Source: Arachis hypogaea (taxonomy: Eukaryota > Streptophyta > Magnoliopsida > Fabales > Fabaceae). Taken from it: a DNA stretch of 64,000 nucleotides. The stretch lies in the NCBI RefSeq assembly GCF_003086295.3, contig NC_092048.1:70412841-70476840 (forward strand). The letters run 5' to 3'. Every line of letters starts with the position of its first letter. The stretch's first letter is position 1. The notes below the pieces were generated by a model. It ran no database searches and was not told the origin of the DNA. It saw nothing but the letters and a program-made list of their open reading frames with translations. This document shows positions 2,804 to 64,000 of this stretch, piece after piece. A program made the translations under genes and the position numbers.

Positions 2804-5131
2804 ATGAGCAGGGACAGAGAAAAAGGCATTCTTGTTGAAGCTGATCCAGAACCTGAAAGGACTCTGAAGAAAAAATTAGGAGAAGCAAAATTACAACAAT
2901 CCAGAGATAACCTTTTAGAAATTTTCGAACAGGAAAAGGAGATGGCAGCCGAAAATAATAATAATGTAAGGAAGATGCTTGGTGACTTTACTGCACCTAA
3001 TTCCAATTTACATGGAAGAAGCATCTCCATTCCTGCCATTGGAGCAAACAACTTTGAGTTGAAACCTCAATTAGTTTCTCTGATGCAGCAGAACTGCAAG
3101 TTTCATGGACTTCCATCTGAAGATCCTTTTCAGTTCTTAACTGAATTCTTGCAGATATGTGATACTGTTAAGACTAATGGAGTAGATCCTGAAGTCTACA
3201 GGCTCATGCTTTTCCCTTTTGCTGTAAGAGACAGAGCTAGATTATGGTTGGATTCTCAACCCAAAGAAAGCCTGAACTCTTGGGATAAGCTGGTCACGGC
3301 TTTCTTAGCCAAGTACTTTCCTCCTCAAAAGCTGAGCAAGCTTAGAGCTGATGTTCAAACCTTCAGACAGAAAGAAGGTGAATCCCTCTATGAAGCTTGG
3401 GAAAGATACAAACAGTTGACCAAAAAGTGTCCTTCTGACATGCTTTCAGAATGGACCATCCTGGATATATTCTATGATGGTTTATCTGAGCTATCAAAGA
3501 TGTCACTGGACACTTCTGCAGGTGGATCCATTCACCTAAAGAAAACGCCTGCAGAAGCTCAAGAACTCATTGACATGGTTGCTAATAACCAGTTCATGTA
3601 CACTTCTGAAAGGAATCCTGTGAATAATGGGACGCCTATGAAGAAGGGAGTTCTTGAAGTTGATACTCTGAATGCCATATTGGCTCAGAATAAAATATTG
3701 ACTCAGCAAGTCAATATGATCTCTCAGAGTCTGCATGGAATGCAAGCTGCATCCAACAGTACTCAAGAGGCATCTTCTGAAGAAGAAGCCTATGATCCTG
3801 AGAACCCTGCAATAGCAGAGGTGAATTACTTAGGTGAACCTTATGGAAACACCTATAACTCAACATGGAGAAATCATCCAAATTTCTCATGGAAGGATCA
3901 AAAGCCCCAACAAGGCTTTAATAATGGTGGAAGAAACAGGTTTAGCAATAGCAAGCCTTTTCCATCATCAACTCAGCAACAGACAGAGAACTCTGAACAA
4001 AATGCTTCTAATTTAGCAAATCTAGTCTCTGATCTATCTAAGGCCACTGTAAGTTTCATGAATGAAACAAGATCTTCCATTAGAAATTTGGAAGCACAAG
4101 TGGGCCAGCTGAGTAAAAGGATCACTGAAATCCCTCCTAGTACTCTCCCAAGCAATACAGAAGAGAATCCAAAAGGAGAGTGCAAGGCCATTGACATAAG
4201 CGCCATGGCCGAACCTGTGAGGAGAGGAGAGGACGTGAATCCCAAGGAGGAATACCTCCAGGGACGTCCAGTGATCAATAAGGAGCTTCCCTCTGGGGAA
4301 CCAAAGGACTCTGAGGCTCATCTAGAGACCATAGATATTCCATTGAACCTCCTTATACCCTTCATGAGCTCTGATGAGTATTCCTCTTCAGAAGAGAATG
4401 AGGATGTTACTGAAGAGCAAACTGCCAAGTTTCTTGGTGCAATCATGAAGCTGAATGCCAAATTATTTGGCATTGATACTTGGGAAGTTGAACCTCCCTT
4501 GTTCATCAATGAACTAAGTGATCTGGATCAACTGACATTGCCTCAGAAGAGACAGGATCCTGGAAAGTTCATAATACCCTGTACCATAGGCACCATGATC
4601 TTTAAGGCTCTGTGTGACCTTGGTTCAGGAATAAACCTCATGCCCCTCTCTGTAATAGAGAAACTGGGAATCTATGGGGTGCAAGCTGCTAAAATCTCAC
4701 TAGAGATGGCAGACAGCTCAAGAAAACAGGCTTATGGACAAGTAGAAGATGTATTAGTAAAGGTTGAGGGCCTTTACATACCTACTGATTTCATAGTCCT
4801 GGATACTGGAAAAAAAGAGGATGAATCCATCATCTTAGGAAGACCTTTCCTGGCCACAGCAAGAGCTGTGATTGATGTTGACAGAGGTGAAATATTCCTT
4901 CAATGGAATGAGAACTCCCTTGTGTTTAAAACTCAAGGATCTCCCTCTGCAACCATGGAGAGGAAGCAGAAAAAGCTTCTCTCCAAGCAGAGTCAACCAG
5001 AGCCCCCACAGTCAAACTCTAAGTTTGGTGTTGGGAGACCACAACCAAACTCTAAGTTTGGTGTTGAACTCCCATATCCAAACTCTATGTTTGGTATTGG
5101 AGAGTCTCAACAAAGCTCTGCACATCTGTGA
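2804..5131 (+). CDS. gag-pro: Gag-protease polyprotein of element A
   Basis: An intact 775-residue ORF starting at the first ATG after the CT-rich leader end. Residues about 90-240 form a Retrotrans_gag domain (LMLFPFAVRDRARLWLDS, then FPPQKLSKLRADVQTF and ESLYEAWERYKQL). A Gln/Asn-rich linker with a YNSTWRNHPNFSW segment follows, but I see no CCHC zinc knuckle. Residues about 585-690 are a retroviral-type aspartic protease with the active site CDLGSG near residue 605 and the flap/closing motif IILGRPFLATARAVID. The tail has three imperfect PNSKFGV repeats encoded by palindromic DNA. The protein should build the virus-like particle and process it. It ends where RT would normally follow, so pol has been lost. 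The sister copy in element I (45979-48315) has the same layout. Confidence 0.92.
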   Translation: MSRDREKGILVEADPEPERTLKKKLGEAKLQQSRDNLLEIFEQEKEMAAENNNNVRKMLGDFTAPNSNLHGRSISIPAIGANNFELKPQLVSLMQQNCKFHGLPSEDPFQFLTEFLQICDTVKTNGVDPEVYRLMLFPFAVRDRARLWLDSQPKESLNSWDKLVTAFLAKYFPPQKLSKLRADVQTFRQKEGESLYEAWERYKQLTKKCPSDMLSEWTILDIFYDGLSELSKMSLDTSAGGSIHLKKTPAEAQELIDMVANNQFMYTSERNPVNNGTPMKKGVLEVDTLNAILAQNKILTQQVNMISQSLHGMQAASNSTQEASSEEEAYDPENPAIAEVNYLGEPYGNTYNSTWRNHPNFSWKDQKPQQGFNNGGRNRFSNSKPFPSSTQQQTENSEQNASNLANLVSDLSKATVSFMNETRSSIRNLEAQVGQLSKRITEIPPSTLPSNTEENPKGECKAIDISAMAEPVRRGEDVNPKEEYLQGRPVINKELPSGEPKDSEAHLETIDIPLNLLIPFMSSDEYSSSEENEDVTEEQTAKFLGAIMKLNAKLFGIDTWEVEPPLFINELSDLDQLTLPQKRQDPGKFIIPCTIGTMIFKALCDLGSGINLMPLSVIEKLGIYGVQAAKISLEMADSSRKQAYGQVEDVLVKVEGLYIPTDFIVLDTGKKEDESIILGRPFLATARAVIDVDRGEIFLQWNENSLVFKTQGSPSATMERKQKKLLSKQSQPEPPQSNSKFGVGRPQPNSKFGVELPYPNSMFGIGESQQSSAHL

Positions 5132-5695: not shown

Positions 5696-6058
5696 CCTTC
5701 ACCAATCACCTCAAACTCTCTTCCCCATCACCTCTTCACCACTCACATCCACCCACTCCTCCCAATAAACCTACCTCATAAACTCCACCTACCTTCAAAA
5801 TTCAAAACCAATTTCCCACCCAAACCCACCCATATGGCCGAACCTTAACCCCCCTCCATTCCCTATATAAAGACCTCCATTCTTCACCAAATTCACACAA
5901 CACACCCCTCTACACTCTCCTTAGCCGAAACCACATCTCCCTCTCCCTCTCCATATTTCTTCTTCTTCTTCTTCTATTCTTTTGTTTATTGCTCGAGGGC
6001 GCACAATATTCTAAGTTTGGTGTGGTAAAAGCATAGCTTTTTTGTTTTTCCATTACCA
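5696..6058 (+). promoter_or_regulatory. Internal promoter-like segment upstream of ORF3
   Basis: A CCAATCACCT box lies near 5701, a TATA box CTATATAAAG at 5863-5872, and a CT-rich untranslated stretch with a TTC/TTCTTC run at 5950-5975. ORF3 starts about 190 bases after the TATA. The same order (CCAATCACATCC, TATATAAA or TATATATA, CT-rich leader, hairpin, ORF3) is seen in C (16625-16960) and in I on the minus strand. This suggests a pol II promoter that gives ORF3 its own transcript; that is inference. Confidence 0.6.
5990..6025 (+). promoter_or_regulatory. Degenerate hairpin plus TCTAAGTTTGGTGTGG module before ORF3
   Basis: TTGCTCG-AGGG-CGCACAA followed by TATTCTAAGTTTGGTGTGG is the A copy of a module that is perfect in C (16894-16932) and I (44985-45018). 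Here two of the seven stem pairs are broken. The downstream word matches the polypurine-tract word at 8325-8341. Confidence 0.55.
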
Positions 6059-8303: not shown

Positions 8304-8341
8304 GTTGCTTGGGGACAAGCAACAATTTAAGTTTGGTGTTG
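8304..8341 (+). promoter_or_regulatory. Hairpin plus polypurine-tract region at the 3' LTR of A
   Basis: GTTGCTTG-GGGA-CAAGCAAC is a perfect 8-bp stem with a four-base loop (8304-8323). It is followed by AATTTAAGTTTGGTGTTG and directly by the LTR start TGATGAGC. The position directly before the LTR is where the polypurine tract must lie, although this tract is an unusual one with T residues. Confidence 0.8.
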
Positions 8342-14792: not shown

Positions 14793-16603
14793 TGATGTGC
14801 GGAAAACGATCCGACACAAAACTCACCGGCAAGTGTACCGGGTCGCATCAAGTAATAAAACTCACGGGAGTGAGGTCGATCCCACAAGGATTGAAGGATT
14901 GAGCAACTTTAGTTTAGTGGTTGAATTAGTCAAGCAAACAAGTGTTGATTGTGTGAAATTGTGTTGACAGGAATTAAATTGCATAGAATGTAAAGGGGAG
15001 TGGGTGATTTGCAGGAAATTAAAGGGAACAAAAAAAGAAAAAGAGCTGAATCTTAAAGAACAAGAAATTAAATGGCAGAAACTTAGAACGCAAGAAATGT
15101 AAATTGCAGAATCTTAAAGTGCAATAAATATAAATTGCTTGAATTATAAAAGGAGTTGGGAATTGGGATTGCAGAAATTAAACAAGGAAAAGTAAATTGC
15201 AACAAGCAGGAATATAAAATGTGGATTCAATCAAACCGGATCTCAAATGACAATAACAATAAGCTTGGTGTAGCAACGAAATAAGGAAATTGAAATTGAA
15301 AGATGTAGATCTCAGGACCCAAGAGACTAGATAACCAAGTCTAGATCTCAATGCCTTCCTAGATCTAAATTTAGAATTCAATTGCAAGAAAAGTAAGATC
15401 AAGCAGTAGAAGAAAGGAATTCAAATATTGATTTCTCAAAAAGTGTAGTAAAGAAAACAGAGAGATCTCAAGGTGAGATTGAGATAGAATTTCCACAATT
15501 CTTCAACACCCAAGACTCAAAATCTCCAAATAGCTCAAAACCCAAAAGCTCTCCAAAAACTACTCAGCAAAACTAAAAGGAAAGCTCTCCCCAAAATCAC
15601 TAAGTAAAAACTAAAAAGGAAAAGCTCCCTTAAAACTTCAAATCCTAAGCTATTTATACACTTTCTTCAAATGATCATTAAGCCTTGAATTGGGCCTGTA
15701 GTCTTGATGGAATTGGGTTGACAGTAGCCTCCGTTGATTGCTCTTGGTGTTGGGAAGAAATCCACTTGTGAACCGGGCCATGAACCATTCACGTTTGAGT
15801 CAACGTTTGAGGCAAACGTTGACTCAAACGTCTTCGTGTGTGGCATTATGCAGCTCGGCCACTTGCTGTCATCCACGTTTAGCTCAACGTTTGAGGTCAA
15901 ACGTGAGCTCAAACGTGGTTCTCCCATGCTACTCCTTTGGCCAACGTTTGGCCCAACGTTTGAGGCAAACGTTGGCGCAAACGTGGCTCAATTAAATCAT
16001 CAATCAGGGACTCTTCTTCATGCTAAATTGGCGCCAACGTTTGACCTCACGTTTGAGGCAAACGTTGGCGCAAACGTTGGTTTGCTCCAGGGGTGCTCTT
16101 TTTCATTCATTTTGGCGCCAACGTTTGACCTCACGTTTGAGGCAAACGTTGGCGCAAACTTTGCCTTCCCTTGCTTCTTCTTCAGCCAACGTTTGCCTCA
16201 ACGTTTGAGGCAAACGTTGGCGCAAACGTTGGCTCTTCTCCAGGGTGTTCTTCATCTGCTTCTCACGTTTGATTTAACGTTTGAGGCAAACGTTAGCTCA
16301 AACGTGAATCCCTCTTTTCAAGCCCATTCTTGCAACCTTCTTCCAAGCTTTATTTCACCTATCATCAATCAACAATTGTATCAAAGCTATGCCATAATCA
16401 TGAGAATTGTTCTTCTTCTTGTCATATGAGCAATTATGGCACAAAAACTCATGAAAATGCATCAATTTATCCATGGTTGATTGAATCAAAGGAAACATGA
16501 AATTCAACTCAATTAACTTACTTATGGCTTAAGAAAGTGCATGAAACTAAATGAAAACAAAGAAAAAAGACTAGTGAAACTAGGCTAAGATGACTTGTCA
16601 TCA
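14793..16603 (-). repeat. Element B 5' LTR (1811 bp)
   Basis: Read on the minus strand it starts TGATGACAAGTCATC (16603) and ends ..TTTTCCGCACATCA (14793) just before the primer site. A TATA box TATAAATA (minus) lies near 15651-15658. Upstream of it in the U3 part is a striking hairpin array (15791-16310). The start resembles that of solo LTR H. The partner LTR is outside the window, so the boundary is set by the TG..CA ends, the primer site and the switch to element C sequence at 16604. Confidence 0.85.
15791..16310 (-). repeat. Array of long perfect palindromes (CAAACGTTGGCGCAAACGT type) in the B LTR
   Basis: Seven nested palindromes start near 15791, 15880, 15940, 16032, 16116, 16184 and 16263. 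The first (15791-15831) is a perfect 18-bp stem with a five-base loop GAGGC. The others share the inner core AACGTTTGAGG-CAAACGTT but vary outside it. One strand happens to stay open as a 231-codon frame, but this comes from the repeat and is not a gene. Confidence 0.9.
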
Positions 16604-16624
16604 CCCATACATACTTCCCTATAA

Positions 16625-16960
16625 ACCCTAGCCCAATCACATCCATATCACTTCCCCAAAACCGTCACAACTCCCACCAACCCCCACCCACTTCAAAATC
16701 AAATTTCCCATCCAAAACCTCACCCATGGCCGAACCTAACACTACCCCGCTCCTATATATACCCCTCTTCATAACCCTTCATACACACACCTCTCATACA
16801 CTCATAAACCCCACTAGCCGAGCCCTCTCTCTCCCTCTACCACCTTCTATTTTCTTCTTCTTCTTCTACTCCATTCTTTTTTTTCCTTTTTTTTTTGCTC
16901 GAGGACGAGCAAATTTTTAAGTTTGGTGTTGGAAAAGCATAGCTATTTTTCTTTCCATTA
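16625..16960 (+). promoter_or_regulatory. Internal promoter-like segment, C copy 1
   Basis: CCCAATCACATCC (CCAAT type) lies near 16631, TATATATA at 16755-16762, then CT-rich sequence to the hairpin at 16894 and the ORF3 ATG at 16967. The layout matches the segments in A and I. Confidence 0.55.
16894..16932 (+). promoter_or_regulatory. Perfect hairpin TTTGCTCG-AGGA-CGAGCAAA plus TTTAAGTTTGGTGTTGG
   Basis: An 8-bp perfect stem with loop AGGA (16894-16913), followed by the same word that precedes the 3' LTR in A and C. It lies 35 bases before ORF3, so here the module is internal. Confidence 0.75.
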
Positions 16961-16966
16961 CCATTT

Positions 16967-18129
16967 ATGGCACCCAAGGTTAGAGAACCCTCTAGAAAGA
17001 GGAAAGGAAAGGCAGTAGCCACCACCTCTGAATCTTAGGAGATGGAGATATTCATCACCAAAGCCCACCAAGACCACTTCTATGAAGTAATGGTAGAGAA
17101 GAAAGTGATCCCTGAGGTCCCTTTCAAGCTCAAGAAGAATGAATATCCAGAAATCCAAAGAGATATCCAGAAAAGAGGTTGGGAAGTCCTAACCAATCCC
17201 ATTCAAGCTATTGGGATTCTAATGGTGCAAGAGTTCTATGCTATTGCATGGGTTACTAAAAACCATGACACTAGTATGAACCCAAATCCAAAGAATTGAA
17301 GCACCAAGGTTCGAGGGAGAATCTTAGATTTCAGCCCGGAAAGTGTGAGATTGGTATTTAGCTTGTCTCTGATGCAAGGCGACCCATATCCTTACACTAG
17401 GAGAGCCCACTTTGATAAAAAATTGGATCAAGTACCCTCAGACATCTGTGTGGAAGGAGCACAATGGAAAAGAGATTTCCAAGGCAAGCCCATTCAACTA
17501 AGAAGGCTTGACCTCAAGCCCATGGCTAGAGGATGGTTGGAATTCATCCAACGTTCCATCATCCCTACTAGCAATTGGTCAGAAGTGACTATTGACAGAG
17601 CTATCATGATCGTTTGCATCATGATTGGAAGTGAGGAGGAAGTACATGAGGTGATTCCTCAAGAATTGTACAAGTTAGCTGAGAAGCCTTCCACCAATGC
17701 AAGGTTGGCATTTCCACACCTCATCTGTCATATATGCAATTCAGCTGGAATTGTCATAGGAGGAGATATCTCCACTAGGGAGGACAAGCCCATCACTATG
17801 AAGAGGATGGAGCAAACTAAAGAGCATGCACAGGAGCCTGTGCAGCCGCCTTAACATGAGATCCCTGAGATGCCTCAAGGGATGTATTTTCCTCCTTAAA
17901 GCTGTTGGGATCAATGGCAGACTTCTCTTGGAGAATTGAGTACTAACATGGAACAATAGAGGGTAGAGCATCAAGAGCACTCCATCACCCTCAATGAAAT
18001 AAAAGAAGACCAAAGAGCCATTAGAGAATATCAAAGGGCTATGAGGGAAGAACAACAAAGGCAAAGGAGTGACATTGAAGAGATCAAGCATCACATTGGA
18101 TCCTCAAAGAGGAACACTAGCCCTCAATG
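16967..18129 (+). pseudogene. ORF3 copy 1 of element C, five stop codons
   Basis: A single frame from ATG 16967 with the same blocks as A's ORF3 (ITKAHQDHFYEVMVEKKVIP, RGWEVLTNPIQAIGILMVQE, ARGWLEFIQRSIIPTSNWSE, LAFPHLICHICNSAGIVI, then a coiled-coil tail). Five in-frame stops (near 17036, 17297, 17852, 17897 and 17957) break it but no frameshift is visible. Keeping the frame with only point stops suggests it decayed recently. Copy 2 follows in tandem. Confidence 0.8.
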
Positions 18130-18130
18130 A

Positions 18131-18235
18131 AACGCCAGTGAGGAAGCCCTCATTGGGCGTTCAACGCCCCAAGAAGAAAGCATTGCTGGCGTTGAACGCC
18201 ATCCAGGGAGCAGCCCCTGGGCGTTCAAACGCAAG
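18131..18235 (+). repeat. GGCGTTCAACGCC palindrome words between the two ORF3 units of C
   Basis: GGGCGTTCAACGCCCC and TGGCGTTGAACGCCA occur within 100 bases, plus a decayed copy. They take the place that the array at 5337-5515 has in A, in front of the next promoter segment. The tandem unit is therefore array, promoter and ORF3. Confidence 0.7.
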
Positions 18236-18277
18236 TGCAGAGAAGTAGAGAATCTGGATTCTGTAGTCTCTCAAGAA

Positions 18278-18622
18278 TTGTGGGTCCCACAGAATCTTCA
18301 CCTACCTTACTTAACCCCACCTACTTTCCCACTTCCCAAAAAAAAAACCTTAGCCCAATCACATCCATTTCATTTCCCCATACCATTATAACTCCTACTA
18401 CCCCCACCCACATAAAAATCAAATTTTCCACCCAAACCCACCCTATGGCCGAACCCAAGCCCTACCCATTCCTATGAATACTCCTCTCCATCACCCTTCA
18501 TGCACACACCTCTCATATCTTCTCCACCCCACAAGGCCGAGCCCTCCCTTTCCCTATTTTCTTCTTTTCTTCTATATTCTTCTCTTTTTGCTCGAAGACG
18601 AGCAAAGTTTTAAGTTTGGTAT
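18278..18622 (+). promoter_or_regulatory. Promoter-like segment and hairpin, C copy 2
   Basis: The segment repeats that of copy 1 (CCCAATCACATCCATTTCA near 18355), but the TATA region has decayed to TCCTATGAATAC near 18471. A perfect hairpin TTTGCTCG-AAGA-CGAGCAAA lies at 18587-18606, followed by GTTTTAAGTTTGGTATTGGG. Confidence 0.5.
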
Positions 18623-18663
18623 TGGGAAAGTATAGCTTTTTTTTCTTTATTCCATTACCATTC

Positions 18664-19829
18664 ATGGCACCCAAGGTTAGAAACTGCTCTAAGAGAAGGA
18701 AAGGAAAGGCAGTAGCCAATCCCTCAGAATCTTAGGAGATGAAGAGATTCATCACCAAAGCTCACCAAGACCACTTCGATGAAGCAGTGGCTGAGAAGAA
18801 AGTGATCCCTAAGGTCCCTTTCATGCTCAAGAAGAATGAGTATTCGGAAATCCGAAGAGAGATCCAGAGAAGAGGTTGGGAAGTCCTAACCAATCCCATC
18901 CAAGAGGTTGGGATTCTTATGGTACAAGAGTTCTATGCTAATGCATGGGTCACCAAAAACCATGACACTAGTGTGAACTCAAATCCAAGGAATTGGATCA
19001 CCATAGTCCGAGGAAGAATCTTAGATTTCAGCCCGAAAAGTGTGAGTTGGCGTTCAAATTGCCTCTATTGCAAGAAGACCTTCATCCTTACCCTAGGAGA
19101 GTCAACCATGATCAGAGATTGGATCAAGTGCTCTCAGATATCTGTGTAGAAGGTGCACAGTGAAAAAGGGATTTCCAAGGCAAGCCCATTCAGTTAAGAA
19201 GGGTTGACCTAAAGCCCATAGCTAGAGGATGGTTGGAGTTCATCCAAAGATCCATCATCCCTACTAACAACCGGTCAGAAGTGACTGTTGACAGAGCCAT
19301 CATGATTCATTGCATCATGATTGGAACTGAGGTGGAAGTTCATGAGGTGATTCCTCAAGAACTGTACAAGGTAGTTGAGAAGCCTCACACTAATGCAAGA
19401 TTAGCATTCCTACCCCTCATCTGTCACTTATACAATTCAGCTGGAATTGTCATAAATGGAGATATCTCCATTGGGGAGGATAAGCCCATCACTAAGAAGC
19501 GAATGGAGTAAATTAGAGAGCATGCACAAGAGCCTGTGCATCTGCCTCATCATGAGATCCCTGAGATGCCTCAAGGGATGTATTTTTCTCCCCAAAGCTA
19601 TTGGGATCAATGGCAAACTTCTCTTGGAGAGTTGAGCACTAACATGGAAAAATTAAGAATGGAGCATCAAGGACATGCCATCACTCTCAATGAAATCAGA
19701 GAAGATCAAAGAGCCATAAGGGAAGACCAAAGGGCTATGAGGAAAGAGAAACAAAGGCAAAAGGGATAACATAGAAGAGATCAATCAGCACATTGGATCC
19801 TCAAGGAGGAGCACTAGGCGCCACCATTA
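18664..19829 (+). pseudogene. ORF3 copy 2 of element C, frameshifted
   Basis: It begins MAPKVRNCSKRRKGKAVANP at 18664 and parallels copy 1. Breaks include a TAG after the first 24 codons, a one-base loss near 19045 (GTGAGTTGG against GTGAGATTGG in copy 1), TGA near 19162, TAG near 19508 and a frameshift near 19765. The C-terminal coiled-coil coding region with EDQRA repeats is still recognisable. Confidence 0.8.
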
Positions 19830-25213: not shown

Positions 25214-25435
25214 ATGGCCACCAGGAAGAGAACCGGAAGATGTTTAAATGGGGAGACAGACAAGTCCATCTGCACAATCCTTAGAGAAAAGCAACAGTTG
25301 AAACAACCCGTCCACTTGCACATCTCAGCATGCACCGAGGACGGTGCAATCTTTAAGTGTGGGGAGGTCGATACCGATCTCCGTGGGTTAGTACCTTCCT
25401 ATCTCAAACACCAATGTTTTATTTTTTCTTGTTAG
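25214..25435 (+). CDS. Small ORF with internal hairpin module in D (possible ORF3 relic)
   Basis: A 73-codon frame beginning MATRKRTGRCLNGETDKSIC after a CT-rich stretch and TTTCAG. The basic start is like the ORF3 starts (MAPK..SRKRKGK) but nothing further aligns. The hairpin at 25331-25348 lies inside it. I do not recognise the protein, and the frame may be chance. Confidence 0.25.
   Translation: MATRKRTGRCLNGETDKSICTILREKQQLKQPVHLHISACTEDGAIFKCGEVDTDLRGLVPSYLKHQCFIFSC
25331..25368 (+). promoter_or_regulatory. Internal hairpin plus polypurine-tract copy in D
   Basis: TGCACCG-AGGA-CGGTGCA is a perfect 7-bp stem with loop AGGA. It is followed after ATC by TTTAAGTGTGGGGAGGT, identical over 17 bases to the polypurine-tract region at 26771-26787. 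The copy lies 1.4 kb upstream of the 3' LTR, so it resembles a central polypurine tract. Confidence 0.8.
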
Positions 25436-26749
25436 TTGTTGCATTTGCATATTTAATTGCATGTTTATTTGATTTTATGCATTTAGTTACTACTTGGTTG
25501 AAGTAATATTTTCTTTTTCAAGAAATATTATAGCATTTCACTAATTTGAAAAAAATTTTTATGTTAAAACTTGTTTGAAGTTGTATTTGGAACATGGTTT
25601 TTAAGCCAAAGAACACACAACCTATGAGATTTGAGCTTATTTATATGGTTACATTATTTAACCATAAATATTTTATTCCTGTGTATTTCCTTCTCTATGA
25701 TTGTAATCTATTTTTTTTGTTCCATTCTATATGTCCAATATTTAGTGTATTTACATGCTTGCATATGATTGAGGCCATTGTTTGATTTTAGCTCACTTAT
25801 CCCAAAATTAGCCTACCTTTTACATCACCCTTGTTAGCCCCCTTGAGCTTTTAAATCCCTTTTGTTTTATAACCACATTACTAGCCTTAAGTAGAAAAAC
25901 AAAATAAGAATCCCAAGTTAAATCCTTGGTTAGCTTAAGATAGATATTGTGTAAAATTTAAGTGTGGAAAATTTTATGGGAACATGGGATGATATGAAAA
26001 AGTAGGGAATTAAATTGAATAAGTTATTTAAAAATTTGGGAAGTATGCTCATGTGAAATCAAAATAATTAAATTACTATGTGCATTGAAGAAAAATATAT
26101 TAAATAATTAAATAAGGGGATACAAAAAAAATGAAAAAAATACCCCAAATGCAAAATAAAAAAATCAATGCACATGGGACAAAATTCAAAAATAAGTTTG
26201 ATACATGAGCATGTAATACAAAAGTGGGAAAATTTTGGGTAGCTAGGTAAAGTATTTTTAAATTATATAAAGTATGTATATGTTAGGTGAGATCTTAGAC
26301 TAATTAAGGATTCACTTTGTTAGCTCACTTAGCCTTATATATATATACCCTCACCCTTACCTTAGCCCCATTACAACCTTGAAAAGACCTCATGATGTTT
26401 GCATTGGTACATTAAATTTTTGTTGATTGGTTAGATGAAGAACAAGGTTTAGAAAGCATGACTAGAGAAGAGTAGAGTGAATAACCCTATACACTTGAGA
26501 GATTAGAGTGATATACACTTCCAGTGAGGGTTCAACGCTTAAATTCTATGTTTCTTGCTTTCATGAGCTGTCTTCTTACAAGTTCACTTGCTTTTTATTG
26601 TCTGATTTGAATTAATGGAAATTGGTTTATATTTGTCTTGGAGAACTTATTTACTCTTAACCAAGTAAGTAAAAGCATTTAGCATGTAGTTGCATTCATA
26701 GGTTGCATTTCATACCATTCCTCTTCATCTTTATAGCTTCTCTTGAGCT
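25436..26749 (+). other. Non-coding 3' region of D
   Basis: AT-rich with no supported ORF. A short TATATATATAT run lies near 26336. AAAATAAAAAAATCAATG-type low complexity fills 26000-26200. Confidence 0.5.
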
Positions 26750-26787
26750 TAGCATGAGGACATGCTAGTGTTTAAGTGTGGGGAGGT
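26750..26787 (+). promoter_or_regulatory. Hairpin plus polypurine tract before the 3' LTR of D
   Basis: TAGCATG-AGGA-CATGCTA is a perfect 7-bp stem (26750-26767), then GTG and TTTAAGTGTGGGGAGGT, then the LTR start TGATAAACC. GTGGGGAGG is the likely primer for plus-strand DNA. Confidence 0.85.
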
Positions 26788-28544: not shown

Positions 28545-28582
28545 GTTGCTTAGGGACAAGCAACGGTTTAAGTTTGGTGTTG
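28545..28582 (+). promoter_or_regulatory. Hairpin plus polypurine-tract region before the 3' LTR of C
   Basis: GTTGCTT-AGGGAC-AAGCAAC: 7-bp stem; the 8th pair (G-C in A) is A-C here. It is followed by GGTTTAAGTTTGGTGTTG and the LTR start TGATGAGCCG. Confidence 0.75.
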
Positions 28583-42650: not shown

Positions 42651-42688
42651 AACACCAAACTTAAATTGTTGCTTGTCCCCAAGCAACT
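42651..42688 (-). promoter_or_regulatory. Hairpin plus polypurine-tract region of I
   Basis: The minus strand reads GTTGCTTG-GGGA-CAAGCAAC, a perfect 8-bp stem, then AATTTAAGTTTGGTGTTG up to the LTR. It is identical to the module in A. Confidence 0.8.
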
Positions 42689-44984: not shown

Positions 44985-45260
44985 CCAAACTTAAAATGTT
45001 TGCTCATCCCGGAGCAAAAGAAGAAAGAAAGAAGTAGAAGAAGAAAAATAGAGGAGAGGGAGAGAGAGATGGTTTTGGCCAAGGGGAAGAAGAGAGGGTT
45101 TTGTTGTGTGAAAATGAAGAGGGAATGAGGGGTTTATATAGGAGTGGGGAGGGGTTTAGGGTTCGGCCATTTAGGGTTTAGGGAAATTATTTTGAATTTA
45201 AAGGTAGGTGGGGTTTTTGGGAAAGAGAGGATGGATGTGATTGGTGAAGAGGTGATGGGG
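44985..45260 (-). promoter_or_regulatory. Internal promoter-like segment and hairpin upstream of ORF3 in I
   Basis: On the minus strand: CCAATCACATCC near 45243-45232, TATATAAA at 45140-45133, CT-rich leader, then hairpin TTTGCTC-CGGGAT-GAGCAAA (45018-44999) and TTTTAAGTTTGGTGTGG. The ATG follows about 40 bases later. Confidence 0.6.
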
Positions 45261-45978: not shown

Positions 45979-48315
45979 TCACAGATAATCAGAGCAAGGT
46001 TGAGACCTCCCAACACCAAACTTAGAGTTTGGTTGTGGGGGTTCAACACCAAACATAGAGTTTGGTTGTGGCCTCCCAACACTAAACTTAGAGTTTGACT
46101 GTGGGGGCTTTGGTTGACTCTGCAGTGAGAGAAGTTTTTCATGCTTCCTCTCCATGGTTACAGAAGGAGGTCCTTGAGTTTTAGACACAAGGTTGTCCTC
46201 ATTTAGTTGAAGGACTAACTCTCCTCTGTCCATATCAATGACAGCTCTTGCTGTGGCTAGGAAGGGTCTTCCAAGGATGATGGATTCATCCTCATCCTTC
46301 CCAGTGTCTAGGATTATGAAATCAGTAGGGATGTAAAGGCTTTCAACCTTTACTAACACATCCTCTACTAGTCCATAAGCCTGTTTTCTTAAGTTGTCTG
46401 CCAATTGTAATGAGAATATGGTAGGCTGTACCTCAATGATCCCCAGCTTCTCCATTACAGAGAGTGGCATAAGATTTATACCTGACCCTAGGTCACACAG
46501 AGCTTTCTCAAAGGTCATGGTGCCTATGGTACAGGATATTAAGAATTTGCGAGGATCTTGTTTCTTTTAAGGTAAAGTTTGCTGAACCCCTGTATTTAGT
46601 TCACTAATGAGCAAGGGAGGTTCACCTTCCCAAGTCTCATTACCAAACAGCTTGGCATTCAGCTTCATGATGGCTCCTAGATATTGAGCAACTTGCTCTT
46701 CGGTTACATCTTCATCATCTTCAGAGGAAGAATAGTCTTCAGAGCTCATGAACGGCAGAAGGAGGTTTAGTGGAATCTCTATGGTCTCTATATGAGCCTC
46801 AGATTCCTTTGGGTCCTTAATAGGGAACTCCTTCTTGCTTGAGAGACGTCCCATGAGGTCATCCTCATTGGGATTCACGTCCTCTCCTTCCTCTCTAGGT
46901 TCGGCCATGTTGATTATGTTAATGGCCTTGCACTCTCTTTTTGGATTCTCTTCAGTATTGCTTGGGAGAGTACTAGGAGGGGTTTCAGTGATTTTCTTAC
47001 TCAGTTGGCCCACTTGTACCTCCAAATTTCTTATGGAAGACCTTGTTTCACTCATGAAACTTAGAGTGGCCTTGGACAGATCAGAGACTAAGTTTGCTAA
47101 ATTAGAGGTATTTTGTTCAGAGTTCTCTGTCTGTTGCTGAGAAGATGATGGAAAAGGCTTGCTATTGCTGAGCCTGTTTCTTCCACCATTATTAAAGCCT
47201 TGTTGAGGCTTTTGTTGATCCTTCCATGAGAGATTTGGGTGATTTTTCCATGAGGGATTATAGGTGTTTCCATAGGGTTCACCCATGTAATTCACCTCTG
47301 CTATTGCAGGGTTCTCAGGATCATAAGCTTCTTCCTCAGAAGATGCCTCTTGAGTACTGTTGGATGCAGCTTGCATTCCATTCAGACTCTGGGAAATCAT
47401 GTTGACTTGCTGAGTCAACATTTTGTTCTGAGCCAATATGGCATTCAGAGTATCAATTTCAAGAACTCCCTTCTTCTGAGGCGTTCCATTATTCACGAAA
47501 TTTCTCTCAAAAGTATACATGAATTGATTATTTGCAACCATGTCAATAAGTTCTTGAGCTTCTGCAGGCGTTTTCTTTAGGTGAATGGATCCACCTGTAG
47601 AATGGTTCAGTGATATCTTGGAGAACTCAAACAGACCATAATAGAATATATCCAGAATGGTCCATTCTGAAAGCATGTCAGGAGGACACCTTTTGGTCAT
47701 CTGCTTGTATCTTTCCCAAACTTCATAGAGGGATTCACCATCTTTTTGCTTGAAGGTCTGAACATCCACTCTAAGCTTGCTCAGCTTTTGAGGAGGAAAG
47801 AACTTAGCCAAGAAGGCTGTGACTAGCTTATCCCAAGAGTTCAGGCTATCTTTAGGTTGTGAGTCCATCCATGTTCTAGCTCTGTCTCTTACAGCAAAAG
47901 GGAAAAGCATGAGCCTGTAGACTTCAGGATCTACTCCATTAGTCTTAACAGTCTTACAGATCTGCAGGAACTCAGTTAAAAACTGATAGGGATCTTCTGA
48001 TGGAAGTCTATGGAATTTGCAGTTCTGTTGCATTAGAGCAACTAATTGAGGTTTCAGCTCAAAATTGTTTGCTCCAATGGTAGGGATTGAGATGCTTCTT
48101 CCATCAAACTTGGAAGTAGGTGTAGTATAATCACCAAGCATCCTCCTTGCGTTATTGTTGTTAGGTGCGTCTGCCATCTCCTTTTCTTGTTCAAAAATTT
48201 TAGTAAGGTTGTCTCTGGATTGTTGTAATTTAGCTTCTCTTAGTTTTCTCTTCAGAGTCCTTTCAAGTTCTGGATCAGCTTCAACAAGAATGCCTTTTTC
48301 CTTGTTCCTGCTCAT
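45979..48315 (-). pseudogene. gag-pro: Gag-protease of element I, one stop codon
   Basis: ATG at 48315 begins MSRNKEKGILVEADPELERT and follows the A protein throughout. A single TAA (46569-46567, from CAA) lies just before the protease, which then continues in frame with CTIGTMTFEKALCDLGSGIN and IILGRPFLATARAVIDMDRG. The tail again has PNSKFGV-like repeats. Without the stop the layout is the same as in A, including the absence of RT. Confidence 0.9.
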
Positions 48316-56311: not shown

Positions 56312-59300
56312 TGTAACGACCCAATTTTTAGTACGCCTAGGACATACCAGAAACTGAGTGCTACCAATTTGTCATCCTAATTATTATCTATTATTTATTA
56401 TATGAGCCTGATTCGTTGTTAAAAGCGTAGTTAGTTAGTGAGGTACTTTTTTTTTAAAACGTTTGGATTAATAAATAGAATCATTCATAAGCAATTCACA
56501 AATAATAATAGATAAAACGCTTATAAACAACCACACATAAATACATCTCAAGCAGATGATAGCATTCCGTGATCCAGCTTTATTAGAGTATAGACTTTTA
56601 GATAGAACACCCCTAGATATAGCTAGATAATAACTATATACATATACATACATACAACATCCCAGGTCCTGACCTGTTCAAGAGGTCCCTAAGCTGGCAC
56701 CTAGGCTAGCCTAGACTCTATACTCACCTAGTCCCTCTAAACTACTAAAGCGAGGGAAAGTATGTTCTAAGTCTTCAAAACTCAAGTCAGGTGGAACGTC
56801 ATCAAAAGGTGGAACATCATCTTCTACTCCTCTGCACGATCAGATATTGCCATATGATATCAATCCAGTACCTCATCAAGTAGCCATATAACAAGAGTCT
56901 CGTACATAGAATTTAGGTTAAAGTTCGCGTACAAACGGGGTGCAGATATTGGCTGGTTTCACCGTATATACATATGAACAGAGAACGGGATTCACCCAAG
57001 ACTCAGAAGACTACCTAGAGCGGAATCCTCTTTGTGAACGGTAATAAGCGAACTACGGAAGTGTACCCAAGCTTCCATCTGAAGGGGGAAGGGAGAGAGA
57101 AGGGGTAAGAACTTGGGAGTTCTTAGTAGGGTCGGGGTTATTAGTTAAGTTCATTAATTCCGTGTTGTTTAGCAGACAAATAGCAGAATACAAGAAGCAG
57201 TAAATAGAAGATACATATAAATAGAGGAAATAGAGAAAATAGAAAACAGAACACAAACAGAAAAATACAAGAAAATACAACACAGACACAGAGAATAAAA
57301 TACAAACAAGGAAAGCATACATTCATACAACAATCATAACAGAGGAAAATGCACAGCCAAGTATGATGCATGTCTAGCCATAGTGCAGGTAATGAGCTCA
57401 TTTGTCGGTTACATACCCACTCCTGACGTTACCCAGCAACCTCTGTCTGGATAAGGCTTTCCTGTTGGCAATATCCACTGCAAGCAACCTTTGTCTTGCA
57501 GGGCGGCACTTATTAGCCGATATACGCCTAACAGACTCACTATAAGCAACCTCTGTCTTACAGGAGCAACAACATACTCACTGTAAGCAACCTCTGTCTT
57601 ACAGGAACAACAACACACTCACTGTAAGCAACCTCTGTCTTACAGGAGCACACTCATCTCGATACCTCTATAAGCAACCTCTGTCTTACAGCAAAGCATT
57701 ATAGCAAGGTATCCCAGGAAAGCGTTCTCAGTGGTCGTACCACCATCTATCTGACTGCCTCTCTGCAGCAGATTCTTACATAATCATTCTCATTATCATC
57801 ATTCATTAACATTCTCATTATTCATCATCACTTTCACATTCTTATGCAGTACTTCTTTCTTTCTCTGTTCAATCATGCTATACAAACTCTACAGCTTTTA
57901 CTTTTACAACATCTTAATTCAAACCATTTCTCTTTATCACATTACTCTTTTCTCTTTGTCTTTTTACTTTGCTCTGATTACTCTTTTCTCTGTATCCTTT
58001 TATTCTGCTCTGGTTACTCTGTTCTCTATGTTTCTTTACTCTGCTCTGATTTCTCTATTTAACGTATGTATTTATAGCTTATGTAAATTTCGGTATGAAT
58101 AGTTAGTCTGTCCCAAGTATAGGTTCATTAAGTCTATACTGAAACAGTTTAACTTTTCATATAATACCTAACCCTAGTCGCAACTCAAGGACTAACTACG
58201 TTGCCCTAGTTCGTTCACTAATTTCTATCTATTTTTCTGTCATTAAAACCTTACAGACTTTTTATTCGATTTTTATCTTTTCTTCAACTTTTTATCTTTT
58301 ATTTATCTTTGCCTCACTAATATGTTTTTACCACTCCCTAAGTGTTTTATGAAAGTAATTATGAGATTCTGTGCTTAAAGTCGTCTTTCTAAAGCTTTTA
58401 CAGAAAACTGCCTTTTCTGCATTATTTTATTAATTTTATTAAAATATTATTTTTAATTAAATATTATTATTTAATATTTTATTATTTTTTAATTATTTTA
58501 TCATTAAATTTTTGAAAATTAACTTAATTTTACTTTTAACCTTTAAAATTCACTTTTTACCACCCGTAACTTTTAATATTTATACTTTTACCACCCTAAC
58601 TTTCATAAATTACCAAATAACCCCTTAAACACCAAAAATTTTACTTCCTTGCCCTTTTAAGGATCTAAAGCCTGTTCTTCATCACACTCAAAGTGTTCTT
58701 CATGTTCTTCATAAATTCTTCAGATTCCTTCTCTGTTTTTACCCGTTTTTCAGTCTTTTCAGCAACCGATTTTTACTATAATTCATAATAAATTAGCAGC
58801 CACTAAAACTCCATATTTTCTACATGATTTCAACACAAATTGAACCTCAATTTAAGCTTAGGGTTTCGTTTTTCCAGCTTCCCAAGAACATGAACTTTAA
58901 AGCTTGAATTTCATCAAATTTCATCAAAATTTCACCAAATTTTCACCAAGAATCAATCATATATGCAACCAATTTTTAGCACAGCAAATTTATACAACAT
59001 TCACACAAATCAAACACAAATAATCAAGATTAATTTCGTGACACCCTACCTGGTTTTGCTGCTCCTAATTCGGTTAGACTTTCAGGTGGTCTTTAAGAAC
59101 TTTTTCCTCCTAAATCACATCAAGAACAACTTTAAATCCAAAAACTCTCAACTAACCAAATCTCACTCAGCATGTTAGGAAGTGATTTCTAAGCTTAGAC
59201 TTGTTGTAAATTCACGTTTCTTGGCTCTCAAGTCAAGTTAAGCATGATTGCTAAGGAAAAAATCAAGAAAACACATGTTTTGCATGATTTTCCTTGAAAA

Positions 59301-60166
59301 CCGAATTGAAATGGGAGGGAGACAGCCATCTCACCTTATTTCCATCATTGATAAGTTATATGGTTATGTAGAGAAAGAAGAGAGGATCATTTTGGTGAAA
59401 TCAGAGTTTTGATTTGAGTTTTAGTTCAGAAGAAATCAAGCTTTGAAGATTAAGTGTTCATGAAAGTTCTCTCTTTTCTCTCTTGTTATTTTTGGCCAAA
59501 ATGATAAAATGAGACAGCCTTGAAGGTCTTGGGGTGTAAGGTGAGTTGTGATTGGTTGGCTTGGAGGTGGGTTAAAATAATATTAAAATATCTCAGGTGT
59601 ATAACTACTAAAACTAGATGTATCGGAACACTTGTAAAAACATCTCTAAAAATTATTTTCTGAGCTACTAGCATAAATGACACTAGTAACATATTTATTA
59701 TGAGAATAGAACATGTATGATGAGGCCTTAGCATTGCTAACATCATCAGAGAGTGCTAGTGCTAAGCTGCACCAGTAAAACCTAAACCCAGTTAAACCGA
59801 TTTCCTGTTTTTAACTAAAACAGACCAGGTAACCTTATAATATCATTCAAGAAGCCTCTAATACTAATATAATGATAATATCATCCTATTATCTCTCTTA
59901 TCTCATAAATCGGGTCCGGTTTGTCAAATTGAAACTATTTCCAAAAAACCGAATCAAAACTCCTAACCGATACGGTTCAAAAACTAGGTTCTTCGTGACT
60001 GCGTTATTGAGCTTGCCTCATAAAAGGTTCTATCTTAAAGATGACATAATGACAATGAGGATTGAGATACTTGATGATATATCAGAGGTGTTCCCTTTAC
60101 TGATCTTCCGAAGAAATTCGTGCCTGTAGAAAAGATCTCGCGTACTCGAAAATCAGGGTTGTTACA
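56312..60166 (-). repeat. Element L 3' LTR (3855 bp)
   Basis: It matches 60618-64000 over the whole visible length with scattered substitutions, a 36-bp unit-number difference in the hairpin array and a 10-bp duplication (TTGTTCTTCA) near 63020. The part 58430-58640 is extremely AT-rich. Short frames in it are not supported as genes. Confidence 0.92.
57433..57691 (-). repeat. Hairpin array with constant loop in the L 3' LTR
   Basis: Six copies of loop CAACCT(C/T)TGT (plus-strand reading) are flanked by pairing arms: CCAG/CTGG (57433), CTGCAAG/CTTGCAG (57478), CTATAAG/CTTACAG (57540), CTGTAAG/CTTACAG (57581 and 57622) and CTATAAG/CTTACAG (57668). Spacing is irregular (about 40-60 bp). The arms change together in several copies. 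Confidence 0.85.
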
Positions 60167-60204
60167 TTCTACCCTCCTAAAAGAAAATTTTGCCCTCAAA
60201 ATTT
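60167..60204 (-). promoter_or_regulatory. Hairpin plus polypurine tract of L
   Basis: The minus strand reads AAATTTTG-AGGG-CAAAATTT, a perfect 8-bp stem with a four-base loop, then TCTTTTAGGAGGGTAGAA and the LTR start TGTAAC. It has the same arrangement as in A, C, D and I although the element belongs to another lineage. Confidence 0.8.
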
Positions 60205-60603
60205 CAGCCGCCTACAGGAATCCATCTTCAAGCAGTCTATTTCCTTCAAGCCATCCTGACGAAGAGATCGGTTCATTCCTTACAGCATCTAAATCTCACA
60301 TAGTCATAGTCATGGAGATCATAATAGCTATGAAGATAGCTGTGGCTCACAACAATTCGTCGTTCGGAGCTCGATTAAACCGTGCCTATTCATAGTCATT
60401 GAGGTCTTATCCGCACCAAACAATCAACATTAAGGTGATCAGTCTTAATATCTCAAGTTAAGTACGAACATTCCCAAAATGAGCACTCATAGACATTCAT
60501 GCCAAATGTATCTTAAAGATACCCTATCGGCATGAGACACACAAGCAGAGTATGCAATAAAGCATAGTCAGTCCACTCCCCAGGCTCTACCGGGAACAAA
60601 CTA
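60167..60603 (-). other. Interior of element L
   Basis: Only about 450 bases with no supported ORF. It contains the hairpin AAATTTTG-AGGG-CAAAATTT (minus, 60204-60185) and the polypurine region (60182-60167). Between them and the primer site there is unremarkable sequence with no similarity to gag or pol that I can see. Confidence 0.7.
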
Positions 60604-60614
60604 CTCTGATACCA
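60604..60614 (-). other. Primer binding site of L (initiator tRNA-Met)
   Basis: The minus strand reads TGGTATCAGAG, complementary to the 3' end of plant initiator tRNA-Met (..CTCTGATACCA), three bases after the LTR end. Confidence 0.85.
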
Positions 60615-60617
60615 AAT

Positions 60618-63600
60618 TGTAACGACCCAATTTTTCAGTATGCTTAGGACATACCAGAAACTGAGTGCTACCAATTTGTCATCCTAATTATTATCTATTA
60701 TTTATTATATGAGCCTGATTCGTTGTTAAAAGCGTAGTTAGTTAGTGAGGTACTTTTTTTTTAAAACGTTTGGATTAATAAATAGAATCATTCATAAGCA
60801 ATTCACAAATAATAATAGATAAAACGGTTATAAAAAACCACACATAAATACATCTCAAGCAGTTGATAACATTCCGTGATCCAGCTTTTTTAGAGTATAG
60901 ACTTTTAGTTAGAACACCCCTAGATATAGCTAGATAATAACTATATACAAATACATACATACAACATCCCAGGTCCTGACCTGTTCAAGAGGTCCCTAAG
61001 CTGGCACCTAGGCTAGCCTAGACTCTATACTCACCTAGTCCCTCTAAACTACTAAAGCAAGGGAAAGTATGTTCTAAGTCTTCAAAAATCAAATCAGGTG
61101 GAACATCATCAAAAGGTGGAACATCATCTTCTACTCCTCTGCACGATCAGATATTGCCAGATGACATCACTCCAGTATCTCATCAAGTAGCCACATAACA
61201 AGAGTCTCGTACATAGGATTTAGGTTAAAGTTCGCGTATAAACGGGGTGCAGACGTTGGCTGGTCTCACCGTATATACATATGAATAGAGAACGGGATTC
61301 ACCCTAGACTCAGAAGACTACCTAGAGCGGAATCCTCTTTGTGAACGGTCATCAGCGAACTACGGAAGTGTACCCAAGCTTCAATCTGAAGGGGGAAGGG
61401 AGAGAGAAGGGGTAAGAACTTGGGAGTTCTTAGTAGGGTCGGGGTTATTAGTTAAGTTTATTAATTCCGTGCTGTTTAGCAGACAAATAGCAGAATACAA
61501 GAAGCAGTAAATAGAAGATACATATAAATAGAGGAAATAGAGAAAATAGAAAAAAGAACACAAACAGAAAAATACAAGAAAATACAACACAGACACAAAG
61601 AATAGAATACAAACAAGGAAAGCATACATTCATACAACAATCATAACAGAGGAAAATGCACAGCCAAGTATGATGCATGTCTAGCCCTAGTGCAGGTAAT
61701 GAGCTCATTTGTCGGTTACATACCCGCTCCCGACGTTACCCAGCAACCTCTGTCTGGATAAGGCTTTCCTGTTGGCAATATCCACTGCAAGCAACTTTTG
61801 TCTTGCAGGGTATCCACTGCAAGCAACCTTTGTCTTGCAGGGCGGCACTTATTAGCCGATATACGCCCAACAGACTCACTATAAGCAACCTCTGTCTTAT
61901 AGGAGTAACAACATTCTCACTGTAAGCAACCTCTGTCTTACAGGAGCAACAACACACTCACTGTAAGCAACCTCTGTCTTACAGGAGCACACTCATCTCG
62001 ATACCTCTATAAGCAACCTCTGTCTTACAGCAAAGCATTATAGCAAGGTATCCCAGGAAAGCGTTCTCAGTGGTCGTACCACCATCTATCTGACTGCCTC
62101 TCTGCAGCAGATTCTTACATAATCATTCTCATTATCATCATTCATTAACATTCTCATTATTCATCATCACTTTCACATTCTTATACAGTACTTCTTTCTT
62201 TCTCTGTTCAGTCATGCTATACAAACTCTACAGCTTTTACTTTCACAACATCTTAATTCAAACCATTTCTCTTTATCACATTACTCTTTTCTCTTTGTCT
62301 TTTTACTTTGCTCTGATTACTCTTTTTTCTGTATCCCTTTATTCTGCTCTGGTTACTCTGTTCTCTGTGTTTCTTTACTCTGCTCTGATTTTTCTGTTTA
62401 ACGTATGTATTTAAAGCTTATGTAAATTTCGGTATGAATAGTTAGTCTGTCCCAAGTATAGGTTCATTAAGTCTATACTAAAACAGTTTAACTTTTCATA
62501 TAATACCTAACCCTAGTCGCAACTCAAGGACTAACTATGTTGCCCTAGTTCGTTCACTAATTTCTGTCTGTTTTTCTGTCATTAAAACCTTGCAGACTTT
62601 TTCTTCGATTTTTATCTTTTCTTCAACTTTTTATCTTTTATTTATCTTTGCCTCACTAATATGTTTTTACCACTCCCTAAGTGTTTTATGAAAGTAATTA
62701 TGAGATTCTGTGCTTAAAGTCGTCTTTCTAAAGCTTTTACAGAAAACTGCCTTTTCTGCATTATTTTATTAATTTTATTAAATTATTATTTTTAATTAAA
62801 TATTATTATTTAATATTTTATTATTTTTTAATTATTTTATCATTAAATTTTTGAAAATTAACTTACTTTTACTTTTAACCTTTAAAATTCACTTTTTACC
62901 ACCCGTAACTTTTAATATTTCTACTTTTACCACCCTAACTTTCATAAATTACCAAATAACCCCTTAAACACCAAAAATTTTACTTCCTTGCCCTTTTAAG
63001 GATCTAAAGCCTGTTCTTCATTGTTCTTCATCACACTCAAAGTGTTCTTCATGTTCTTCATAAATTCTTCAGATTCCTTCTCTGTTTTTACCCGTTTTTC
63101 AGTCTTTTCAGCAACCGATTTTTACTATAATTCATAATAAATTAGTAGCCACTAAAACCCCATATTTTCTACATGATTTCAACACAAATTGAACCTCAAT
63201 TTAAGCTTAGGGTTTCGTTTTTCCAGCTTCCCAAGAACATGAACTTTAAAGCTTGAATTTCATCAAATTTCATCAAAATTTCACCAAATTTTCACCAAGA
63301 ATCAATCATATATGCAACCAATTTTTAGCACAGCCAATTTATACAACATTCACACAACTCAAACACAAATAATCAAGATTAATTTCGTGACACCCTACCT
63401 GGTTTTGCTGCTCCTAATTCGGTTAGACTTTCAGGTGGTCCTTAAACACTTTTTCCTCCTAAATCACGTCAAGAACAACTTTAAATCCAAAAACCCTCAA
63501 CTAACCAAATCTCACTCAGCATGTTAGGAAGTGATTTATAACCTTAGACTTGCTGTAAATTCACGTTTCTTGGCCCTCAAGTCAAGTTAAGCATGATTCC

Positions 63601-64000
63601 TAAGGAAAAACATCAAGAAAACACATGTTTTGCATGGTTTTCCTTGAAAACCGAATTGAAATGGGAGGGAGACAGCCATCTCACCTTATTTCCATCCTTG
63701 ATAAGTAACATGGTTATGTAGAGAAAGAAGAGAGGATCACTTTGGTGAAATCAGAGTTTTGATTTGAGTTTTAGTTCAGAAGAAATCAGGCTTTGAAGAT
63801 TAAGTGTTCATGAAAGTTCTCTCTTTTCTCTCTTGTTATTTTCGGCCAAAATGATGAAATGAGACAGCCTTGGAGGTCTTGGGGGTGTAAGGTGAGTTGT
63901 GATTGGTTGGCTTGGAGGTGGGTTAAAATAATATTAAAATATCTCAGGTATATAACTACTAAAACTAGATGTATCAGAACACTTGTTAAAACATCTCTAA
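60618..64000 (-). repeat. Element L 5' LTR, partial
   Basis: Begins TGTAACGACCC in plus reading and matches 56312 onward. From the 3' LTR length about 470 further bases should follow beyond the window. Confidence 0.92.
61741..62030 (-). repeat. Hairpin array in the L 5' LTR, seven copies
   Basis: Same array as at 57433-57691 with the CTGCAAG/CTTGCAG unit duplicated. The copy CTATAAG/CTTATAG (near 61879) is fully paired here, where the 3' LTR has a mismatch. Confidence 0.85.

Follow-up and report, generated by a model that had tools for sequence, protein, structure and literature searches.

How a plus-strand primer differs from the other purine runs of its element is, to our knowledge, an open question for most LTR elements. 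The DNA analysed here (the window, 64,000 nucleotides from Arachis hypogaea, whose genome comprises 2.557 Gb in 440 contigs) is a nest of LTR retrotransposons, and it raises this question through a small tetraloop hairpin beside putative primer sites. Hairpin and tract have a simple common design: a 7-8-bp stem closed by a G-C pair, an RGGR loop, and 2-3 nt before the tract begins. Our preferred reading, to which we assign a probability of about one half, is that the hairpin is a selected cis-acting structure forming one module with a putative plus-strand primer site.

Hairpins at the 3' LTR borders of the window

Self-comparison of the window placed LTR pairs for elements A, D, I and L and identified A, I and C as relatives of one another, so that the five terminal hairpins represent roughly three independent families. 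The PBS TGGCGCCGTTGCCGGGG is present in A and D and, as printed, only partly in I; that of L is TGGTATCAGAG. We take the lineages to be Athila-like and Tekay-like and the Athila4/Calypso lineage to be related to the elements here, and the LTR start presumably resembles that of the peanut FIDEL family. Element L (56312-64000) appears to carry LTRs about 3.8 kb long, one of them cut by the window end; its internal region, with PBS, hairpin and tract, spans only about 0.45 kb.

An earlier note on this DNA had described tetraloop hairpins in A, I, C, D and L, and all five are where it put them (Table 1), that of C with a closing mismatch. Each was said to lie within about 20 bases of its tract; they end 2-3 nt before TTTAAGT in A, I, C and D, and 2 nt before TTTTAGGAGGG in L. 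In all five elements the tract adjoins the 3' LTR, with 18 nt from stem base to LTR in A, I, C and L and 20 nt in D. The tract is largely purine-rich in D and L, and only 7 of its 16 letters are purines in A, I and C. The broader statement, that a hairpin precedes every polypurine tract, holds for the LTR-bordering tracts (5/5) but not beyond them: the D motif at 25957 has none, and among the window's 18 AAGTTTGG motifs four have a perfect hairpin, three a mismatched or decayed one, and the remaining 11 no preceding purine-tetraloop stem of 6 bp or more.

Table 1. Hairpins, tracts and a hairpin-free motif in the window
Feature	Sequence or state	Position	Strand	Neighbouring feature
A, terminal hairpin	GTTGCTTG-GGGA-CAAGCAAC	8304..8323	+	
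A, tract bordering 3' LTR	TTTAAGTTTGGTGTTG	8326..8341	+	LTR start 8342
I, terminal hairpin	letters identical to A	42668..42687	-	
C, terminal hairpin	closing A.C (equivalent to 7 bp with a 6-nt loop)	28545..28564	+	
D, terminal hairpin	TAGCATG-AGGA-CATGCTA	26750..26767	+	
D, tract bordering 3' LTR	TTTAAGTGTGGGGAGGT	26771..26787	+	LTR start 26788
L, terminal hairpin	AAATTTTG-AGGG-CAAAATTT	60185..60204	-	
C, internal hairpin	TTTGCTCG-AGGA-CGAGCAAA, then TTTAAGTTTGGTGTTGG	16894..16913	+	ATGGCACCCAAG about 55 nt downstream
C, second internal copy (tandem duplicate)	loop AAGA	18587..18606	+	
I, internal hairpin	TTTGCTC-CGGGAT-GAGCAAA, C.T at closing pair	44999..45018	-	
A, internal copy	decayed (TTGCTCGAGGGCGCACAA)	5989..6006	+	142-aa ORF start 6062
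D, internal hairpin	TGCACCG-AGGA-CGGTGCA, then ATC and TTTAAGTGTGGGGAGGT	25331..25348	+	
D, third PPT-like motif	TTTAAGTGTGG; hairpin-free natural control	25957..25967	+	

In a count over both strands that omitted pure A/T hairpins and kept the true sites, 0.98% of window positions have a perfect stem of at least 7 bp around a 4-nt loop whose end lies 10-30 nt upstream of them. Counted from the hairpins, on both strands and with pure A/T cases excluded, 7 of the 10 purine-tetraloop hairpins with stems of at least 7 bp abut a TTTAAGT or TTTTAGGAGGG tract, as do all five with stems of at least 8 bp. RNA folding forms the hairpin at 9 of 10 window sites, the decayed internal copy of A giving only a broken one; the 88-nt surroundings of these ten sites are not unusually stable as RNA (z from -2.5 to +0.9). 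No Rfam 15 model matches any of the hairpins at gathering score, the only matches in the window being two to snoR71. (These matches to a plant C/D snoRNA, just above threshold, lie at 3338-3445(-) and 47671-47778(+), antisense inside the gag ORFs of A and I.) Inverted motifs of the form ACGTTTG...CAAACGT, some with an AGG loop, are repeated at 15780-16305, with no adjacent tract in the part read.

Pairing, loop and distance across the genome

At the ten window sites (nine distinct), 91.7% of cells are paired and 7 of 8 pairs are changed on both sides. In a shuffle control the pairing, both-sides and covariation values were reached by 0 of 500 shuffles and the number of pair types by 1 of 500; slid registers pair to at most 45.3%.

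Pattern searches, which give lower bounds and all concern this one genome, indicate how common the module is. The exact letters of the A hairpin occur at least 27,374 times, and CAG-N7-RGGR-N10-TTTAAGTTTG has at least 26,823 matches, the reversed control having none. Among about 100 A-family rows, the first listed and on contig 1, six have a change in the 7-bp core by eye, none of them compensated, and the loop is GGGA or AGGA. D-type junctions, sought by tract and LTR start alone and hence blind to the hairpin, number at least 19,240 (6 in the reversed control). Fifty were read (the first 30 listed, all on contig 1, and 20 picked with a preference for variant tracts): the core AGCATG/CATGCT is perfect in 45, the loop, with any 4 nt allowed, is AGGA in 46 and AAGA in 3, and the seventh pair is loose (TA 25, AT 8, TT 9, AA 6, two others). 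An equally hairpin-blind search gave at least 1,123 L-type junctions and none in the control; in the first 30 listed, 23 have a perfect stem of at least 8 bp, 6 a damaged one and 1 none, and the upstream sequences split into visibly different groups, to all of which the hairpin is common.

Two further patterns reach other families. GAGGACY-N8-TTTAAGTNTGG is found at 550 or more places, with a stem in 19 of the 20 read. This D-internal-like set (first 20 listed) has many mismatches at pair 2, which are enriched by design since the pattern forced a right-arm pyrimidine there, and one group has G-C at pair 2 where D has C-G. The pattern CGAGGACG-N8-14-AAGGNGGG occurs at 464 or more places versus 8 in the reversed control. 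In 20 of these, chosen for variety among the listed places, the stem is perfect over at least 6 bp in 15, damaged or G.U-bearing in 4 and absent in 1. These stems (AATTTTCG/CGAAAATT, AGATTCG/CGAATCT, AAGTTTCG/CGAAACTT and GATTTTCG/CGAAAATC), in which the pattern dictated pairs one and two, vary between groups at pairs 5-8 with pairing retained. A CG-AGGA-CG form, like the TTTCG-AGGA-CGAAA that the earlier note gave for other plants, occurs in this genome.

Pooling 120 genome sites from four pattern sets with the ten window sites gave 130 sites and 50 distinct arm pairs; none was left out, so that two stemless, chance-like sites (L219 and L252) and one that has lost its stem (L217) are counted. 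Arm positions are paired in 86.6% of cases versus 52.0% when arms are swapped (sd 3.1; maximum 62.9 in 5000 swaps), a comparison that ignores kinship among the sites and uses small samples partly chosen for variety. (It should be added that the D and L-type loops were located by best pairing, which favours pairing, and that the swap control was applied afterwards.) Ten different stems are perfect over 7 bp; all ten have G-C as pair 1, and pairs 2-7 all vary, with two to four types each. This variation is mostly between families, the stem being nearly fixed inside a family. Compensated changes are found between families; none was seen among the A-family rows listed. We consider it very probable that the hairpin is real and kept by selection on base pairing.

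Whether it acts as RNA is a separate matter. Stem mismatches at the pooled sites are G.U in 15 cases and A.C in 15, and because these counts are equal, plus-strand RNA is not favoured over DNA. The equality would suit a role at the DNA level, in a cruciform, as a site for a protein on double-stranded DNA, or as a hairpin in single-stranded minus DNA. A double-stranded protein site would, however, keep its letters rather than its pairing, and ten different perfect stems are in use; we judge a DNA-level role to be quite improbable. Coding does not account for the L-type hairpin through a pol-length frame, since at 30 L-type loci stop-free frames crossing it reach at most 86 codons and those ending in it at most 40; a short peptide may run across it. 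Pairing of the U-rich tract with the PPT, which folds had suggested, was rejected, since shuffled tracts pair almost as strongly: among 46 distinct D sites the mean z is -0.28, with 8 below -1.

The loop is more constant than the stem. It is RGGR at 124 of 130 sites (AGGA 97, AGGG 22, GGGA 5), although in 40 of the 130 the pattern itself demanded AGGA and the step that located D and L-type loops required four purines. The near-invariance of the loop Gs suggests that something binds them, NC being the natural candidate; zinc-knuckle proteins prefer exposed loop Gs on a short stem. The hairpin might accordingly be a Gag/NC-binding element for RNA packaging or dimerisation, its closeness to the tract being a matter of history. 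The partly pattern-set RGGR loop and the retention of the hairpin by the non-autonomous L would fit such an element, but packaging would demand neither precise spacing from the LTR nor a neighbouring tract at every copy, and the internal copies described below carry the tract too; we judge this reading unlikely.

The distance in question is indeed narrow. From loop end to LTR start there are 25-28 nt wherever measured: in the window, 27 in D and 26 in the other four elements; 26 in all 24 L-type sites with a stem of at least 5 bp (of 30); 26 at 14, 25 at 3 and 27 at 1 among the AAGGNGGG sites (the 18 of 20 in which the LTR start could be placed by motif); and 27 in 35, 26 in 9 and 28 in 1 of the D sites (45 counted of 50), the D and L-type patterns themselves fixing the part from tract to LTR. 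Measured from the stem base the distance is less steady (16-21 nt, stems of at least 5 bp).

Internal copies and hairpin-free tracts

Five further copies of the module, each a hairpin with a TTTAAGT-type tract, lie inside A, I, C and D, away from the LTRs. The terminal tract is repeated with them: in D the identical 17 nt stand at 25352 and 26771, and in C the same 16 nt at 16916 and 28567. (Element C has a tandem duplication at 16623-19817, with a period of about 1.7 kb, which spans the internal hairpin module and what comes after it.) The two copies of D share the AGGA loop, the 3-nt length of the spacer and the 17-nt tract; 5 of the 7 stem pairs differ, and every change is compensated. In 5 of 30 D loci, and in 3 of 20 loci of the D-internal-like set, internal and terminal D sites were found together, 1.3-1.5 kb apart; each locus extends only 1.5 kb to either side. 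The internal copies associate the hairpin with the tract rather than with the LTR or the 3' end of the RNA, and since they have no LTR near them, they disfavour 3'-end formation as a general role. Of the functions that the earlier note had offered for an RNA structure at the tract, this one therefore loses ground as a general explanation, whereas base pairing tied to the tract is upheld by compensation, spacing and the internal copies.

The same elements also contain PPT-like motifs that lack the hairpin. The third motif of D lies about 0.6 kb after the internal module, and no hairpin precedes it in the window or in the six D loci listing that motif. The sequence TAAGTTTGGTGT recurs without a tetraloop hairpin in the leaders of A and I, near the end of the gag ORF and elsewhere, at 1482, 1672, 5021 and 5054 (+) and at 49636, 49442, 46023, 32412, 55537 and 55488 (-); in gag it stands in tandem copies, among them the short palindrome CCAAACTCTAAGTTTGG.

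These observations bear on the simplest account, in which the hairpin has no function and is an old structure inherited by descent and copied along with its neighbours. Much as that account would have it, the stem hardly varies inside a single family and decays once an element has inserted. Yet double changes are compensated both between families and between internal and terminal copies, PPT-like motifs in the same elements are free of the hairpin, and the swap test speaks against it as well; mere descent is very improbable.

The surroundings of the internal copies suggest another possibility, namely that a pyrimidine tract ending in YAG, the hairpin and an ORF start in A, I and C make up a regulated 3' splice site or the start region of the ORF that follows. 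In A, I and C the internal copies lie upstream of ATGGCACC(C/T)AAG, which follows the hairpin by about 55 nt, and in A and I an ORF with Pfam PF20167 lies downstream of the module. Against a window mean of 50% (sd 13), pyrimidines make up 57-97% of the 30 nt upstream of the hairpin at 9 of the 10 window sites, L being the exception with 47%; the means are 72% in 50 D sites and 55% in 30 L-type sites. The A-family pattern that has at least 26,823 matches places CAG at the 5' base. However, behind the terminal copies there is only the LTR, and no ORF of more than 63 aa begins between the internal and terminal copies of D (ATG start, ORFs of at least 60 aa listed); the YAG stands at varying distances or within the stem, and the distance from loop to LTR is left unexplained. 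A splicing or start-region function accordingly earns little credence. (The 30 nt directly before the internal hairpins of A, C and I, at 5959-5988(+), 16864-16893(+), 18557-18586(+) and 45019-45048(-), are 90-97% pyrimidine and resemble a plant 3' splice site.)

A putative primer module and its known parallels

What the sequence offers, in pairing, between-family compensation, loop conservation, spacing and internal presence, is a covarying, precisely spaced structure in one plant genome, apparently in two lineages of elements. That its role is tied to the primer site is slightly favoured. Under the preferred reading, in which hairpin and primer site form one module, the hairpin in genomic RNA would mark a weakly polypurine tract as the chosen primer. 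Minus-strand RT would copy U3 and the tract and then meet the stem, where it would be slowed or held; the pause would leave the tract and the edge of U3 in fresh hybrid behind the polymerase, and RNase H of the paused RT would gain time or position for the cut at the tract/U3 junction. The loop Gs could be a grip for Gag/NC or RT, and the internal copies could serve as second plus-strand start sites, like a central PPT. In this scheme the tracts are presumed to be working primers and RNA the active strand, and the steps given to RT, RNase H and NC are likewise conjectural.

The stall-and-cut step is doubtful. The base of the 8-bp stems is 18 nt from the junction, and in HIV-1 RT 17-18 bp separate the two active sites. 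A ruler set by stalling fits poorly, though, because the distance is steadiest from the loop and not from the stem base. In Ty3 the separation of polymerase and RNase H is given as about 13 bp in a review (PMC5371799), which is shorter than 18; with this value and the steadier distance from the loop, a pause is possible at best. A more specific proposal envisages an RNA element acting in cis and shared by two lineages of plant Ty3/gypsy elements: an RGGR hairpin about 26 nt from the LTR would turn a tract into a plus-strand primer and, in some families, serve at two places in each element, one internal and one terminal. This proposal is tentative and falls somewhat short of even odds. If true, it would mean that primer choice rests on structure as much as on polypurine sequence. 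The tract of A, I and C is barely polypurine, and a covarying hairpin beside it gives a direct handle on primer recognition; the hairpin has tens of thousands of copies in this genome, a natural contrast within one element is offered by PPT-like motifs that have it and others that lack it, and it can serve as a marker for 3' LTR borders and non-autonomous elements.

Searches outside this genome gave little. A pattern scan of IMG/VR returned no plant element among the matches listed, nor did protein scans, and a stem of at least 4 bp around an NGGA loop was present at 1 of 121 listed IMG/VR pattern sites; a GTDB scan gave 11 bacterial records. In a term search the word hairpin was absent from the main texts of PMC1142308, PMC6317226, PMC2864245, PMC11963269 and PMC2410132. 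No description of such a hairpin was found in the literature covered, which was partial, subscription papers lying mostly outside it, so an earlier description may exist. We know of no such hairpin at the central PPT of lentiviruses or the second PPT of Ty1.

Both are known cases of a second plus-strand start inside an element (PMC2829016), to which the internal copies in peanut would correspond as putative second starts. In yeast Ty3 a SHAPE map of the genomic RNA puts the PPT in a base-paired region with lower-probability pairs, and the available passages of that paper (PMC11381356) contain no tetraloop hairpin before it. Benachenhou et al. called for a systematic search for PPT-containing hairpins (PMC3601003). 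Closer to the present elements, Athila4 and Calypso have an extra PPT in the linker (Wright and Voytas 2002, cited in PMC2829016), placed, as here, in the stretch from pol to the 3' LTR; the citing passage mentions no hairpin.

A close parallel is the inverted repeat around the PPT of Sireviruses and of almost half of the other Ty1/copia elements studied, for which a part in making the PPT accessible to RNase H has been proposed (Bousios et al. 2010, PMC2829016). Like the peanut hairpin, it has an exact position by the plus-strand primer of a plant LTR retrotransposon, in elements with several PPT copies near the 3' end. The arrangement differs: in Sireviruses one arm is upstream and the other inside the LTR, with the PPT at the 5' side of the loop, whereas in peanut both arms stand before the tract, so that a PPT in the loop and a right arm in the LTR are not what the peanut hairpin has. 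Sirevirus arms average 28 bp, and their upstream PPTs are without the repeat, whereas the internal copies in peanut have the hairpin. Finally, the Sirevirus repeat belongs to Ty1/copia elements, whereas the peanut hairpin, with its 4-nt RGGR loop, is of the Ty3/gypsy type.
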